From NCBI RefSeq assembly GCF_900129775.1, contig NZ_FQWV01000007.1, forward strand, positions 1-64,000: 64,000 nucleotides of DNA, written 5' to 3'. How positions within the stretch are numbered: position 1 is the stretch's first letter; each line of letters starts with the position of its first letter. The position numbers and the translations under genes are program-made. Shown one piece after another: positions 28,145 through 52,692 of this stretch. A model generated the notes under the pieces. The model was given only the letters and a program-made list of their open reading frames with translations, searched no databases and had not been told where the DNA came from. This stretch comes from Halobaculum gomorrense (GTDB lineage Archaea; Halobacteriota; Halobacteria; Halobacteriales; Haloferacaceae).

Positions 28145-28352
28145 GCGCGGAGGTGACGCCGGGGACGTAAATCGGTCTGGGGACGCCGCGGCGACGGGAG
28201 CGAAGGCGAGCCGACGGTAACCCGTGTGGCGAGGACGCTCGCACGCACGGAGCGCACGCGCCGAATCGAGAACGGGTCAGACCCCCATGTTTCGTGTGGA
28301 AACGGCAAGACTGCGTCCGGAACCGGTTCTACATGAAGCGCGCGAAGAGAAG

Positions 28353-45431: not shown

Positions 45432-45458
45432 CCCCCACCCCTCCGTTTCGAGTGGAAC
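45432..45458 (-). other. Origin recognition box, left
   Basis: Minus strand TTCCACTCGAAACGGAGGGG then TGGGGG. It has the dyad-like core and long G-run of an archaeal ORB bound by Orc1/Cdc6. It points away from the right ORB across the AT-rich element. Confidence 0.9.
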
Positions 45459-45490
45459 TGCCGAAAGACCGGGGCGGTGTTCACGCGCCA

Positions 45491-45580
45491 CGTATTTTTC
45501 AGTGCTCAACGCACACCTAATAAAATAATTTGCTAGTCGTTCGGTTATTGTTAGCTAGCATGTGTAATAAATATACCGCA
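45491..45580. other. AT-rich putative DNA unwinding element
   Basis: Contains CGTATTTTTC, CCTAATAAAATAATTTG, GTTATTGTTAGC and TGTGTAATAAATATACC. It is the most AT-rich stretch of the window and lies between two inverted ORBs. It is the expected melting site in an Orc1-bound origin. Confidence 0.85.
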
Positions 45581-45616
45581 GTCTAGACGGACTCCACCCC
45601 CCACCCGGTCGTGGCC

Positions 45617-45646
45617 GGTTCCACTGGAAACGAAGGGGTGGGGGGG
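45617..45646 (+). other. Origin recognition box, right
   Basis: Plus strand TTCCACTGGAAACGAAGGGG followed by TGGGGGGG. The core TTCCACTGGAA is the more symmetric form, and with the left ORB it makes an inverted pair 160-215 bp apart (outer limits). This is the best match to an archaeal ORB in the window. Confidence 0.93.
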
Positions 45647-46035: not shown

Positions 46036-46059
46036 GATTCCAGTCGAAACGAAGGGGTG
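46036..46059 (+). promoter_or_regulatory. ORB overlapping the orc1 translation start region
   Basis: Plus strand TTCCAGTCGAAACGAAGGGG plus TG ends 10 bp before the orc1 ATG and includes the only ribosome-binding-like purine run. A bound Orc1 here could limit its own expression. It may also be an origin element. Confidence 0.8.
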
Positions 46060-46069
46060 AACCACACGG

Positions 46070-47779
46070 ATGACACAGGACGACGAACCGAATCGAAGCT
46101 CGAACTCCGGCGGCACCGACGCGAACCGAACCCCGGCAGACGATCGCAACGCCGACAACGACTCCACTCGAAACGTGGGGCTGTCGTCGCCCGACGATCG
46201 CGACACCGGCGGCGATAGCCTCTCCGCGGACGGTGACGGCGAGGACGGCGAGGACTCCGAGGAGAGCGCCGCAGGAGACGCGGACCGGACCGACCACGAC
46301 GCGACCGGCGCCTCGTTCGAGTTCGGGTCAGGGTCGCGGTCGCGCGCGGATGTCGACCTCGACGTCGACGAGGTGCTCGCTGATGACGACGAGGCTAGCA
46401 CGGGTCTGTTCGACGATCTCCTCTCGGGAGAGCCGATCTTCGAGAACAAGGAGGTCCTCCGTCCCTCGTACACGCCGCACGAACTTCCCCACCGGAAGGA
46501 CCAGATCAACAAGATGGCGACCATTCTCGTGTCCGCGCTGCGCGGAGAGACGCCGTCGAACATCCTCATTTACGGGAAGACGGGGACGGGAAAGACCGCC
46601 TCCGCGAAGTTCGTCTCTCAGGAGCTCGAGTCCACGTCCCAGAAGTACGACGTGCCCTGCGAGGTCGAGTACATCAACTGCGAGGTGACCGACACGCAGT
46701 ACCGCGTGCTCGCGCAGCTCGCAAACAAGTTCATCGAGAAGAACGAGGCCGTCATCGACGACCGGCTCGACGACCTTCGCGATCTCCGATCGGCATCGAC
46801 AGACAGCTCCGACGCGCTCGATGACACCGAGTTCGACGCCGTCGCCGACGTGGACGACCGGATCGCCGACCTAGAGGCCGACCGCGAGGAGATGGAGGAG
46901 GTGCCGATGACGGGGTGGCCGACCGATCGGGTGTATTCCACGTTCTTCGACGCCGTCGATTATCACGAGCGCGTGGTCGTTATCATGCTCGACGAGATCG
47001 ACAAGCTCGTCGAGAAATCGGGTGACGATACGCTGTACAACCTCTCGCGGATGAACTCCGAACTGGAGAATTCCCGGATCTCCATCATGGGGATCTCGAA
47101 CGACCTGAAGTTCACCGACTTCCTCGACCCCCGGGTCAAGTCGAGCCTCGGCGAGGAGGAGATCGTCTTCCCGCCGTACGATGCGAACCAGCTTCGGGAC
47201 ATCCTCCAGCACCGCTCGGACATCGCGTTTAAAAACGACGCGCTCACCGAGGACGTGATTCCGCTGTGTGCTGCCTTCGCCGCCCAGGAGCACGGTGACG
47301 CCCGCCGCGCACTCGATCTGCTGCGCACCGCCGGCGAACTCGCCGAGCGTTCGCAGGCGGATCTCGTCGAGGAGGCGCACGTCCGCCAGGCCCAGGACAA
47401 GATCGAACTGGACCGCGTCGTCGAGGTCGTGCGGACCCTCCCGACCCAAAGCAAGATCGTCCTCTTTTCGATCATCCTCCTCGAACAGAACGGGGTTCAC
47501 AACGTCAACACCGGCGAGGTGTTCAACATCTACAAGCGCCTCTGTGAGGAGATCGATGCGGACGTGCTCACCCAGCGACGGGTGACCGACCTCATCTCCG
47601 AGCTCGACATGCTCGGGATCGTGAACGCCGTCGTGGTCTCGAAGGGTCGCTACGGTCGCACGAAGGAGATCAGCCTCTCGGTCCCCGTCGAGGAGACCGA
47701 AGCCGTCCTCCTGTCGGACTCCCGCCTGGGTGACATCGAAGACGTCCAACCGTTCGTGCAGGCTCGCTTCGACAACTGA
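46070..47779 (+). CDS. orc1: Orc1/Cdc6-family replication initiator
   Basis: 569 aa. The AAA+ initiator binds ORBs, melts the origin and loads MCM. Residues 1-125 form an acidic disordered tail. The AAA+ domain then shows Walker A GKTGTGKTASAK (about 168-179), Walker B VVIMLDEIDKL (about 302-312), sensor 1 SIMGISNDLKF and the sensor-2 region DARRALDLLRTAGELA. The last ~130 residues are a winged helix (VVRTLPTQSKIVLFSIILLEQNGVHNVNTGEVFNIYKRL). A ~45-residue insertion around 235-280 (DDRLDDLRDLRSASTDSSDAL) is an extra acidic helix pair. An ORB lies on the start region, and a further ORB-like motif lies in the coding sequence at 46162-46180. An alternative start was not favoured. Confidence 0.97.
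   Translation: MTQDDEPNRSSNSGGTDANRTPADDRNADNDSTRNVGLSSPDDRDTGGDSLSADGDGEDGEDSEESAAGDADRTDHDATGASFEFGSGSRSRADVDLDVDEVLADDDEASTGLFDDLLSGEPIFENKEVLRPSYTPHELPHRKDQINKMATILVSALRGETPSNILIYGKTGTGKTASAKFVSQELESTSQKYDVPCEVEYINCEVTDTQYRVLAQLANKFIEKNEAVIDDRLDDLRDLRSASTDSSDALDDTEFDAVADVDDRIADLEADREEMEEVPMTGWPTDRVYSTFFDAVDYHERVVVIMLDEIDKLVEKSGDDTLYNLSRMNSELENSRISIMGISNDLKFTDFLDPRVKSSLGEEEIVFPPYDANQLRDILQHRSDIAFKNDALTEDVIPLCAAFAAQEHGDARRALDLLRTAGELAERSQADLVEEAHVRQAQDKIELDRVVEVVRTLPTQSKIVLFSIILLEQNGVHNVNTGEVFNIYKRLCEEIDADVLTQRRVTDLISELDMLGIVNAVVVSKGRYGRTKEISLSVPVEETEAVLLSDSRLGDIEDVQPFVQARFDN
46162..46180 (+). other. ORB-like motif inside orc1
   Basis: CTCCACTCGAAACGTGGGG, about 95 bp into the orc1 coding region, encoding the disordered acidic N-terminus. 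It keeps the core and a short G-run. It could be bound by Orc1 to extend the origin, or be chance in a low-complexity region. Confidence 0.45.
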
Positions 47780-48100
47780 TCGATCCCAGATCTCCGATCG
47801 GTCACCAGTCACCCGTCGCTGCTCGTCTGATCCAGATTGGCTCCGGCCCCCTCACGTCAGCCCGAATCGTTGTGCTCGTGAATCAGTATACCCCCTTGCT
47901 TCGACTCCACGACCGCTTCGCAGTACCTGATTTTCGAGGAATAATTCGCTCTACTTGAAATGGCGGATGCGTGTCCAACACATGGCTGTGTGTCCAACGC
48001 ATGGCTGTGTGTCCGAGACACCGTCCTCGTCGGCACGCGGTACGTGGCGCGGGCTGTCGATTCGCGGCGACGGAGCGCCGCGTACGGTGCGGTGACGCCC
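47780..48100. repeat. Convergent intergenic stretch with 19-bp direct repeats
   Basis: 320 bp between the convergent orc1 and sec11 genes. At 47971-48021 there are two near-identical 19-mers (GTGTCCAACACATGGCTGT and GTGTCCAACGCATGGCTGT) plus a partial third copy that ends in the inverted repeat GTGTCCGAGACAC. No ORF of haloarchaeal character and no clear terminator was found. Confidence 0.65.
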
Positions 48101-48928
48101 TCACGCGGCAGCGGCGGTCGGCGCGCCGCCGGCCGCCGTGACGGACGGTGCTTCCGGCGCCATCGACAGTGATCCCGGTGCCGACAGCGATCCCGGCGCC
48201 GACAGCGACTCCGTCCCGTTGGCGGCGTCCACGCGTTCGACTCCGTCGGTCGATCCCGCCACCACGCCGTTTGAGAGCCCCTCCGCCTGGACGAGCACGG
48301 CCTCCGAGAAGACGAGGCGGACGTACCCGAGATAGGGGATGCGGACGCGCGCGATCCCGCGGACCCACTCGGATCGCACGACGGGCGCGATCCCGCTCAC
48401 CTGGTCGTACTGCGCGTTCGCGTCGCCCTTCGTGATGAAGCCATCGTACGGCGCGGGACAGGCCGAGATCTGCTTGCAGGAGTTCGACGGGAGGTAGTCG
48501 GGGTTCGCCCGGTCGACCCAGTTTTCGCCCTCCTCGACGTGGAGGCGAGCGCGGTGGATGATCGGCGGCCCGCCCGAGTCCGGAGGTCGGTAGACGACCA
48601 CCGACCCGGGCGCGCCGAACGTCGAGTATCCCCGTTCGAGACCGGTTTCGTGGGTGACGATTCCGGTGTCGCCGTACGCGAACTCCGGCGAGAATCGGTC
48701 AGGCTCGGTGATGAACACGAGGTCGCCGCGCTCCATGTGCGGCTCCATACTGCCGGATTCGACGGCGACCATCGGCGGCCACACGCCCGACACGGCGAAC
48801 AGCAAGAGACCGATCGTCGCGACCGCCAGCACCGACGTGAGTATCTCTCGGATGAATAGCAGCGCCCCGGTTTCGGCATGAAGGAACCGCGACAGCGGGT
48901 CGTCGGGGCGGCTCCCGTCGTCGCTCAT
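48101..48928 (-). CDS. sec11: Signal peptidase I (archaeal Sec11 type)
   Basis: 275 aa. Removes signal peptides at the outer face of the membrane. One N-terminal helix (about 29-50, ILTSVLAVATIGLLLFAVSGVW), then the serine box VESGSMEPHM with catalytic Ser60. Box D-like VYRPPDSGGPPIIHRARL carries His125 in place of bacterial Lys, and GFITKGDANAQYD has the Asp near 169. A C-terminal hydrophobic segment follows, then an imperfect SLSAPGSLSAPG repeat and an Ala/Thr tail. It is convergent with orc1. Its location next to the origin recurs in haloarchaea. Confidence 0.94.
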   Translation of the reverse strand: MSDDGSRPDDPLSRFLHAETGALLFIREILTSVLAVATIGLLLFAVSGVWPPMVAVESGSMEPHMERGDLVFITEPDRFSPEFAYGDTGIVTHETGLERGYSTFGAPGSVVVYRPPDSGGPPIIHRARLHVEEGENWVDRANPDYLPSNSCKQISACPAPYDGFITKGDANAQYDQVSGIAPVVRSEWVRGIARVRIPYLGYVRLVFSEAVLVQAEGLSNGVVAGSTDGVERVDAANGTESLSAPGSLSAPGSLSMAPEAPSVTAAGGAPTAAAA

Positions 48929-49116: not shown

Positions 49117-50706
49117 GTGCCGCTGGAGACGTCCTCCCGAGTCGTACAGGCGCTCACCCGCCGCGGGTACAACGCCCAGCGGGAGGCCGTCACCCTGATC
49201 GCCGAGTCGGAGACGCCGGATCTCGCGCTGGAGGCGGCCATCGAGGCCGCGCCCGAGGACGCCCTTGTGGTGACTGCCGACCACGTCCGCGAGGCGCTCG
49301 CGAGCGACCCGGTGCCGGACCCGGAACAGGTCAGGGGAGAAAGCGACTCCTCTCACGCGCCGGCGCCGACCGCAACCGACTCCCCCTCTTCCCCCGCCGA
49401 AGACCCCCCCGTTTCGACTGGAACGACAGACGCGAAACCGCCTGATGGATCTTCGTCGGTTCCACCCGAAACGAAGGGGGTCGCGGGCGGGGATCGATCC
49501 CCGCCCGCGCCGACCGTCGCGAACGACATGACCGGCGAATCCACCGGAACCGGCGCGTACAAGGAGTTCGTCGGGGTGTTCCGCGACCGCTACGAGCGGC
49601 TCTCCGGGCAGCTTCGGGGGCGCGTCAACCATCGCCCCGCCGACTCGATTGAGGCGATGGGCGGCGGCGCCGACGTGGAGACGATCGGCCTCGTCAACGA
49701 CATCCGCTCGACGGCGTCGGGGCACTGGCTCATCGAACTGGAGGACACCACGGGGACGTTTCCGTGCCTCGTGATGAAGGACCGCGACATCGCGGACCTG
49801 GTCGACGAGCTGCTCTTAGACGAGTGCATCGCGGTGTCGGGGACGCTCGCGGACGACGCGGGCATCATCTTCGTCGACGCGATCCACTTCCCCGACGTGC
49901 CGCGGACGTACCGTCCGAACACCGCCGACCGCCACGTCCAGGCGGCGCTCGTCTCCGACGTGCACGTCGGCTCCCAGGAGTTCCTCGCCGACGCGTGGGG
50001 TCGTTTCGCCGACTGGCTCCACACTGAGGAGGCGGAGACCGTCGAGTACCTCCTTATCGCCGGCGACATGGTCGAGGGGGTGGGAGTCTACCCGAACCAG
50101 GACGACGAACTGGACATCATCGACATCTACGAGCAGTACGAGACATTCTCCGAGCATCTCAAGCAAGTCCCCAGCGACATGGAGATCGTCATGATCCCTG
50201 GGAACCACGACGCCGTCCGGCTGGCCGAGCCCCAACCCGGTTTCGACGAGGAGCTTCGGGGGATCATGAGCGCCCACGACCCCCAGATCGTGAGCAATCC
50301 CGCGATGGTCGACGTGGAGGGCGTGACCATCCTCATGTACCACGGGGTCTCGCTCGACGAGGTGATCGCTGAGCTTCCCGAGGAGAAGGCAAGCTACGAT
50401 GAGCCGCACAAGGCGATGTATCAGCTCCTCAAGAAGCGCCACGTCGCTCCGCAGTTCGGCGGGAAGACCCGCGTCGCCCCCGAGGAGCGCGACTATCTCG
50501 CCATCGACGAAGTGCCAGATGTGTTCCACACCGGCCACGTGCACAAGCTCGGCTGGGGGAAGTACCACAACGTCCTCGCGGTCAACTCCGGCTGCTGGCA
50601 GGCGCAGACCGACTTCCAGAAGTCCGTCAACATCGACCCCGACGCCGGCTTCGCGCCGATCCTCGATCTGGACACGCTGGAGATGACGGTGCGGAAGTTC
50701 GCCTGA
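49117..50706 (+). CDS. DNA polymerase D (PolII) small subunit DP1
   Basis: 529 aa. Replicative polymerase D exonuclease subunit. An N-terminal helical domain (1-75) is followed by a disordered linker (about 76-160, rich in P, S, T), an OB-fold (about 180-260) and the calcineurin-like nuclease domain: LVSDVHVGSQEFL, LLIAGDMVEGVG, IPGNHDAVR, MYHGVSLDE and VFHTGHVHKLGWGKY. All metal ligands are present, so 3'-5' exonuclease activity is likely. The GTG at 49117 lies about 28 bp after a TATA-like box, supporting a leaderless start rather than the longer frame. Two ORB motifs are embedded in the linker coding DNA (49403-49424, 49458-49480). Confidence 0.95.
   Translation: MPLETSSRVVQALTRRGYNAQREAVTLIAESETPDLALEAAIEAAPEDALVVTADHVREALASDPVPDPEQVRGESDSSHAPAPTATDSPSSPAEDPPVSTGTTDAKPPDGSSSVPPETKGVAGGDRSPPAPTVANDMTGESTGTGAYKEFVGVFRDRYERLSGQLRGRVNHRPADSIEAMGGGADVETIGLVNDIRSTASGHWLIELEDTTGTFPCLVMKDRDIADLVDELLLDECIAVSGTLADDAGIIFVDAIHFPDVPRTYRPNTADRHVQAALVSDVHVGSQEFLADAWGRFADWLHTEEAETVEYLLIAGDMVEGVGVYPNQDDELDIIDIYEQYETFSEHLKQVPSDMEIVMIPGNHDAVRLAEPQPGFDEELRGIMSAHDPQIVSNPAMVDVEGVTILMYHGVSLDEVIAELPEEKASYDEPHKAMYQLLKKRHVAPQFGGKTRVAPEERDYLAIDEVPDVFHTGHVHKLGWGKYHNVLAVNSGCWQAQTDFQKSVNIDPDAGFAPILDLDTLEMTVRKFA
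49403..49424 (-). other. ORB inside the DP1 gene (left)
   Basis: Minus strand GTTCCAGTCGAAACGGGGGG: core plus G-run of full ORB type, within the DP1 linker coding DNA. Confidence 0.65.
49458..49480 (+). other. ORB inside the DP1 gene (right)
   Basis: Plus strand TTCCACCCGAAACGAAGGGG then G, inverted relative to the ORB 35 bp to the left. The match is as good as the oriC ORBs apart from CCC for CTG in the core. The pair lies 3.8 kb from the centre of oriC. Confidence 0.7.
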
Positions 50707-52130: not shown

Positions 52131-52146
52131 AGCAGCCGAGTCGCTC

Positions 52147-52263
52147 GGCTACGCTTGCGGCGGCGGGGCGGCCCGCTACGTTTGCGGCGGCGAGAGGGCC
52201 CGCTACGTTTGCGGCGGCGAGAGGGCCCGCTACGTTTGCGGCGGAGCCCGGCAGGGCGGCCCG
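52147..52263. repeat. 27-bp tandem repeats between convergent genes
   Basis: Four copies of CGCTACGTTTGCGGCGGCGA(n)GGGCC: a first variant at 52147, two identical copies at 52174 and 52201, and a diverged longer one at 52228. CGCTAC opens each unit and also covers the stop of the acetyltransferase. The array has no spacers and is not a CRISPR. Confidence 0.85.
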
Positions 52264-52692
52264 CTACGCTTCCTCCACCCGATAGCGGGTCGTCGCCTTC
52301 CCCTCGAACTGCGGCCCCGGTCCGGCCGCCTCGAACCCGGCGCGCTCGGCGGCCGCGCGGAGGCCGTCCTCGCCGTCGATCACGAGCAGCTCGACGGCCA
52401 TCTCCTCGGTCGCGGCGAACCGCAGCGGCTCGGCGAGCAGCTGCTCTGCCGCCTCGCGAGTCCCGCCGAACTGCGTGACGTGAACCGTGTCGCCGCGGAC
52501 GTCGAAGCTGACGAACCCGAGGAGGTCGTCGGGGTCGGCGTCGACGTCCTCGTTCGGGTCGGTCGCCGCCGCCTCCTCGACGGCGACGCGAACCGTCCGG
52601 TCGTGGACCAGCCCGCGCATCGCGTCCGACGGCGCGTCGGCGATCGCCGCCAGCGCCTCGGCGTCCGCCTCCACCGCGTCCCGGACGTGCAT
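52264..52692 (-). CDS. GNAT-family acetyltransferase-like protein
   Basis: 142 aa. MHVRDAVEADAEALAAIADAPSDAMRGLVHDRTVRVAVEE fits the first GNAT strand-helix unit, LLGFVSFDVRGDTVHVTQFGGTREAAEQLLAEPLRFAA the central part, and LLVIDGEDGLRAAAERAGFEAAGPGPQFEGKATTRYRVE the terminal part. The usual acetyl-CoA loop (Q/RxxGxG/A) is not evident, so cofactor use is uncertain. It is convergent with the reductase across the 27-bp repeats. Confidence 0.72.
   Translation of the reverse strand: MHVRDAVEADAEALAAIADAPSDAMRGLVHDRTVRVAVEEAAATDPNEDVDADPDDLLGFVSFDVRGDTVHVTQFGGTREAAEQLLAEPLRFAATEEMAVELLVIDGEDGLRAAAERAGFEAAGPGPQFEGKATTRYRVEEA

Follow-up and report, generated by a model that had tools for sequence, protein, structure and literature searches.

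A Class-Wide Inverted Pair of ORBs Within the Haloarchaeal DP1 Gene, Conserved as DNA and Possibly Linked to dp1 Expression

The gene for DP1, the small (exonuclease) subunit of PolD, in Halobaculum gomorrense contains two inverted ORBs that, judged from sequence, almost certainly constitute a site of the Orc1 type conserved at the level of DNA. The explanation that we prefer, tentatively and at somewhat less than an even chance, is that the pair serves as a dedicated double site for Orc1 (Cdc6A), apart from any origin, and would tie dp1 transcription to the amount or ATP state of the initiator.

The window, that is, the whole 64,000-nucleotide stretch of DNA analyzed, contains oriC1, an oriC1-type orc1/cdc6 gene, and the DP1 gene (Table 1). 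The GTG start of DP1 is kept among relatives, the closest named one by DP1 being Halobaculum saliterrae (87% identical); 10 genomes of the window's genus were included in the comparison set. A gene between orc1 and DP1 on the opposite strand (48101-48928) is presumably signal-peptidase-like. The product of orc1 is the presumed binder of the DP1 pair, and the oriC1 ORBs served as the reference for the ORB profile.

Table 1. Features of the window bearing on the DP1 ORB pair
Feature	Position	Strand	Details
oriC1	45438-45638		inverted ORBs flanking an AT-rich stretch at ~45495-45585
oriC1 left ORB	45438-45457	-	
oriC1 right ORB	45619-45638	+	
Third oriC1-side ORB	46038-46057	+	32 bp upstream of the orc1 start codon
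orc1/cdc6	46070-47779	+	oriC1-type initiator gene, Cdc6A orthologue
DP1 gene	49117-50706	+	PolD small (exonuclease) subunit; reading frame; Pfam DNA_pol_E_B above cut-off
DP1 reverse ORB	49404-49423	-	core TTCCAGTCGAAACG 49410-49423; G-string 49404-49409
Spacer between DP1 ORB cores	49424-49459		36 bp
DP1 forward ORB	49460-49479	+	core TTCCACCCGAAACG 49460-49473; G-string to about 49479

An earlier note on this DNA had claimed two ORBs of opposite orientation at 49403-49480, inside the coding DNA for the DP1 linker and about 3.8 kb from oriC. Both cores were found there, one on each strand and both in the DP1 frame, ~290 to 360 nt into the gene and within a low-complexity linker. The distance holds for the right oriC1 ORB (45619), while the left one (45444) is ~4.0 kb away. 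The claimed separation of 35 bp needed a small correction, as 36 bp lie between the 14-bp cores, whose starts are exactly 50 bp apart. Both sites match the oriC1-type core TTCCANNNGAAACG exactly, and each core is followed by a G-string of the halophile type, GGGG(GG); the two are inverted with G-strings outward, the polarity seen at oriC1. In the DP1 frame, the reverse ORB reads CCC CCC GTT TCG ACT GGA (P P V S T G) and the forward ORB reads (G)TT CCA CCC GAA ACG AAG GGG (V P P E T K G). Only nine exact 14-bp cores occur in the 3.2-Mb genome (three at oriC1, two in the DP1 pair, and four elsewhere), and a pair of exactly this geometry is found a single time genome-wide, against no match in the reversed control; the pair is thus not due to chance.

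Several other repeats were observed in the same region. An additional ORB with one mismatch and a G-string (46162-46181) lies early in the orc1 coding sequence; together with the ORB upstream at 46038, it makes autoregulation of orc1 possible. Two near-ORB cores without a G-string occur 80 bp apart on the minus strand (43257 and 43337), ~2 kb past oriC1 on the side opposite orc1. Short tandem repeats were seen at 47970-48020 (gtgtccaacrcatggctgt), between orc1 and the minus-strand gene, and at 52145-52265 (cgctacgtttgcggcggcgag), downstream of an oxidoreductase gene.

The pair is widespread in the class. A blind genome-wide search for it, with 20 specified positions and no more than 2 mismatches, recovered the same spacing in 209 of 391 class genomes, representing 57 of 86 genera and nearly always in single copy per genome; these genomes are not independent samples, and the controls have the same ancestry. 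The reversed pattern gave no matches in the 391 genomes, which rules out a chance origin. Every one of 30 sampled matches was located in DP1. A comparison of 80 named DP1 loci from haloarchaea showed the motif again in the linker, with constant codon phase and in most cases as a minus/plus pair spaced 50 bp; the DP1 genes of three Haloarcula species other than Haloarcula hispanica carry the pair. Where a family seemed to lack it, DP1 often has a pair at 47 or 62 bp. A set of 150 DP1 genes, deliberately enriched for lineages without the strict pair, comprised 98 genes with a pair, 43 with a single ORB (the state of Halorubrum and some other genera), and 9 with none, so that at least one linker ORB was present in 141. 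Spacing was 50 bp in 86 of the 98 pairs, 47 bp in 8, 62 bp in 3, and 65 bp in 1. All 241 ORBs of these 150 genes lie in the linker (57.7 kb in total), and the remaining 191.7 kb of DP1 has none. Outside the class, the pair was absent from all 242 genomes of other classes of the phylum, and 24 DP1 loci of other families contained not a single ORB, which makes the pair a feature of the class Halobacteria and leaves an ancient archaeal origin unsupported.

Some variants were recorded in the course of these searches. Four genomes had two pairs. In two of these, the second pair belongs to a near-identical duplicate of the DP1 region, probably reflecting assembly redundancy. A second inverted 50-bp pair lies directly downstream of orc1 in one genome (G313, locus L177) and within orc1 in another (G187, locus L178). 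In Haloferax DP1 (L007-L018; also L209 and L210), the 50-bp geometry is kept and the ORBs are altered (TTGCANNNGAAACR, CTCCANNNGAAGCG), perhaps giving a weaker or re-tuned site.

Because the reading frame across the DP1 sites is constant, giving P-x-V-S-T-G and P-x-E-T-x-G, constraint on the peptide had to be excluded. Under such constraint, a short linear motif of the linker (VSTG ... PVETxG) would yield ORB-like DNA as a by-product, and the encoded peptides are indeed alike across the class. Codon usage was compared in genes chosen by peptide alone. At the reverse ORB, V was GTT, T was ACT, and G was GGA in 53 of 53 genes each, compared with 7%, 7.5%, and 9.5%, respectively, elsewhere in the same DP1 genes. 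At the forward ORB, P was CCA in 77 of 78 and E was GAA in 81 of 82 (8% and 29% elsewhere in the same genes). Among 482 DP1 columns in 116 dereplicated genes, the five most codon-frozen were all ORB positions, at 3.0 to 3.6 bits against 1.9 for the next column and a median of 0.13; since all 482 columns share one tree, shared descent does not account for this difference. At the three free ORB positions, bases vary widely, and in the forward site this triplet encodes 11 different residues. When synonymous codons were shuffled within each gene with the peptide kept, only ~3 of the 241 ORBs and none of the 98 pairs were left. The frozen codons and the loss upon shuffling indicate that the constraint acts on DNA, and a peptide motif as the cause is rejected at this level, its probability being negligible, although the peptide may have a role in addition. 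The earlier note had proposed that synonymous-site conservation be compared and that relatives keeping the linker without the motif would speak against it; conservation sits at the synonymous ORB positions, and the motif is kept while the rest of the linker varies in length and sequence. Its suggestion that the motifs are kept as predicted initiator-binding sites, the linker leaving room for them, is supported by this pattern.

The base profiles of the two DP1 sites follow those of the oriC-side ORBs, with information-content correlations of 0.95 and 0.87, although the DP1 sites use different codon phases. Tolerated changes are also common to both sets (C/T at the first position, C/G at the third, and GAAAC or GAAGC). 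Since the DP1 sites are identical to oriC1 ORBs, Orc1 probably occupies them. The sequence between the sites is not conserved, only its length being constant, and the distance of the site from the DP1 start ranges from 209 to 503 nt among relatives. This contrast argues that geometry matters and not the number of sites alone, and the fixed spacing suggests that a single complex sits on both sites, in place of two separate ones.

Inverted ORBs with outward G-strings, placed 3 to 6 kb from oriC1 in most genomes, could form an accessory or dormant origin that recruits MCM and either initiates or helps oriC1. Several findings speak against this. The 36-bp spacer has a mean GC content of 0.65 in 103 pairs (0.66 for whole DP1), no AT-rich unwinding element was found between the DP1 ORBs of those pairs, and the extra GGG that follows oriC ORBs is missing from the DP1-side ORBs. 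An origin would be expected beside an orc/cdc6 gene; in 12 named loci with no oriC1-type orc1 in the 8 kb upstream of DP1, ORBs persist all the same (8 with the pair, 4 with a single ORB). In Halorarius litoreus and Halorarius halobius, orc1 lies 131 and 86 kb, respectively, from DP1 and the pair is intact. A pair so far from orc1 and without an AT-rich core is not simply part of oriC1, a candidate disfavored by these unlinked genomes. A dormant origin is improbable because the unwinding element is absent, and we regard an accessory or dormant origin as quite unlikely overall; the "extra origin element" of the earlier note is disfavored on the same grounds.

We instead favor, with some reserve, an action of the pair on the expression of dp1 over titration of Orc1. 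Two Orc1 molecules would bind the inverted ORBs at their fixed spacing, G-strings outward and with no unwinding element between them. At ~0.3 kb past the start of dp1, the bound Orc1 would then assemble into a nucleoprotein block or switch, acting, for example, as a roadblock or switch during early elongation, and dp1 transcription would thereby be coupled to the state of the initiator. The fixed geometry, the loyalty to one gene, and the independence from oriC1 speak for an action on dp1 itself. Deletion of cdc6A in Haloarcula hispanica is very difficult even though oriC1 is dispensable, which the authors of that work read as a vital Cdc6A function outside oriC1 (PMC3936714). The archaeal Orc1 paralogue Orc1-2 is a transcription regulator (PMC9738581). 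Both fit with control of dp1. Other observations count against such control or its generality. The site begins ~290 nt inside dp1 and not in its promoter, and the pair is not universally needed, since Halorubrum and some other genera have a single ORB and no ORB is present in 9 of the 150 genes. In Halobacterium NRC-1, the orthologue orc7 is dispensable and polD1 is essential (PMC1906834); the dispensability of orc7 argues against a universally essential role.

The main rival is an initiator sink, in which the pair would lower free Orc1 and so prevent over-firing of oriC1; its location in dp1 would be historical, dp1 expression would be unaffected, and the placement could merely reflect a sink once put there. 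A precedent exists in oriC2D, which is ORB rich and represses oriC2, probably by titrating Cdc6E (PMC3936714). A strict search (ORB plus G-string) of seven complete genomes of 2.7 to 4.4 Mb found 3 to 6 sites per genome and none in the control; nearly all were at oriC1 and DP1, with DP1 the chief strict-ORB site after oriC1. This distribution is in line with a sink, as are the further single ORBs at conserved distances around oriC1 in the window's genus, and retention of the pair 86 to 131 kb from oriC1 is compatible with titration. The DP1 boxes lie outside the minimal origin, as in a titration locus, but there are only two (a single one in several genera, Halorubrum among them) rather than the dense cluster of oriC2D, and a sink leaves the strict spacing and orientation and the class-wide fidelity to one gene unexplained. 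We consider a sink possible and somewhat less probable than control of dp1.

Single ORBs are also dispersed beyond oriC1 and DP1, at 28282 and 54843 in the window, at 75439 and 84055 of the same contig, and at position 132256 of contig C11. Throughout the genus they recur at comparable distances from DP1, with ~8 to 13 matches per genome (control, 0 to 1). One adjoins serA, and two fall in codons for conserved motifs, one in an ABC ATPase gene and the other in an archaetidylserine-decarboxylase-like gene. A further rival takes the pair, oriC1, and these sites as Orc1 anchors that organize or segregate the origin region in a parS-like manner, and the genus-wide single ORBs at approximately -21, +5, +26, and +35 kb and near serA ~190 kb away, far in excess of the control, would accord with it. 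However, some dispersed sites code for conserved motifs (VPPEARGVG of the ABC ATPase; TPYVSRG of phosphatidylserine decarboxylase), so that peptide constraint may explain these two ORBs, and few dispersed sites were found in other families tested. Such a domain-marking role appears improbable, to about the same degree as an accessory origin.

The DP1 pair resembles known systems in part. It shares with haloarchaeal oriC1 ORBs the 14-bp core, the G-string, the inversion, and the base-by-base tolerance, and differs in lying within a coding gene, in some genomes not beside orc1, and in its 36-bp, GC-rich, fixed spacer, as opposed to ~160 to 250 bp of AT-rich DNA at oriC1. As with oriC2D of Haloarcula hispanica, ORBs lie outside the minimal origin and modulation of the initiator is proposed; oriC2D is an intergenic cluster downstream of cdc6E with restricted distribution (PMC3936714), whereas the DP1 pair comprises two coding sites of the oriC1 type, class-wide and in a polymerase gene. 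Like the bacterial datA and DARS loci, which are DnaA-box clusters away from oriC, the pair could control initiator availability from a separate locus, although the initiator and the motif are different. The datA locus is not known to be embedded in a replicative polymerase gene. The proposed action on expression recalls Saccharolobus Orc1-2, an Orc1-family protein that is a non-initiator paralogue acting on damage-response genes (PMC9738581); in the DP1 case, the protein would be the initiator, acting through one double site within a gene. A full-text search of open-access literature found no description of the DP1 pair. The main haloarchaeal ORB survey scanned only intergenic regions beside orc/cdc6 genes (PMC3528665) and would therefore have missed it.

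Control of the archaeal initiator is poorly understood, and the DP1 pair is a class-wide element that lies apart from the origin, in the gene for an essential polymerase, where purifying selection on its synonymous sites is strong. It points to an unrecognized link between the initiator and a polymerase gene and offers a specific candidate for the vital role that Cdc6A was inferred to have outside oriC1 in Haloarcula hispanica. It may be, though we advance this with caution as the less probable side of an open balance, that Orc1 directly controls DP1 production through a double ORB overlapping coding sequence; this would constitute an initiator-to-replisome supply circuit conserved in the class Halobacteria and could be that vital function.
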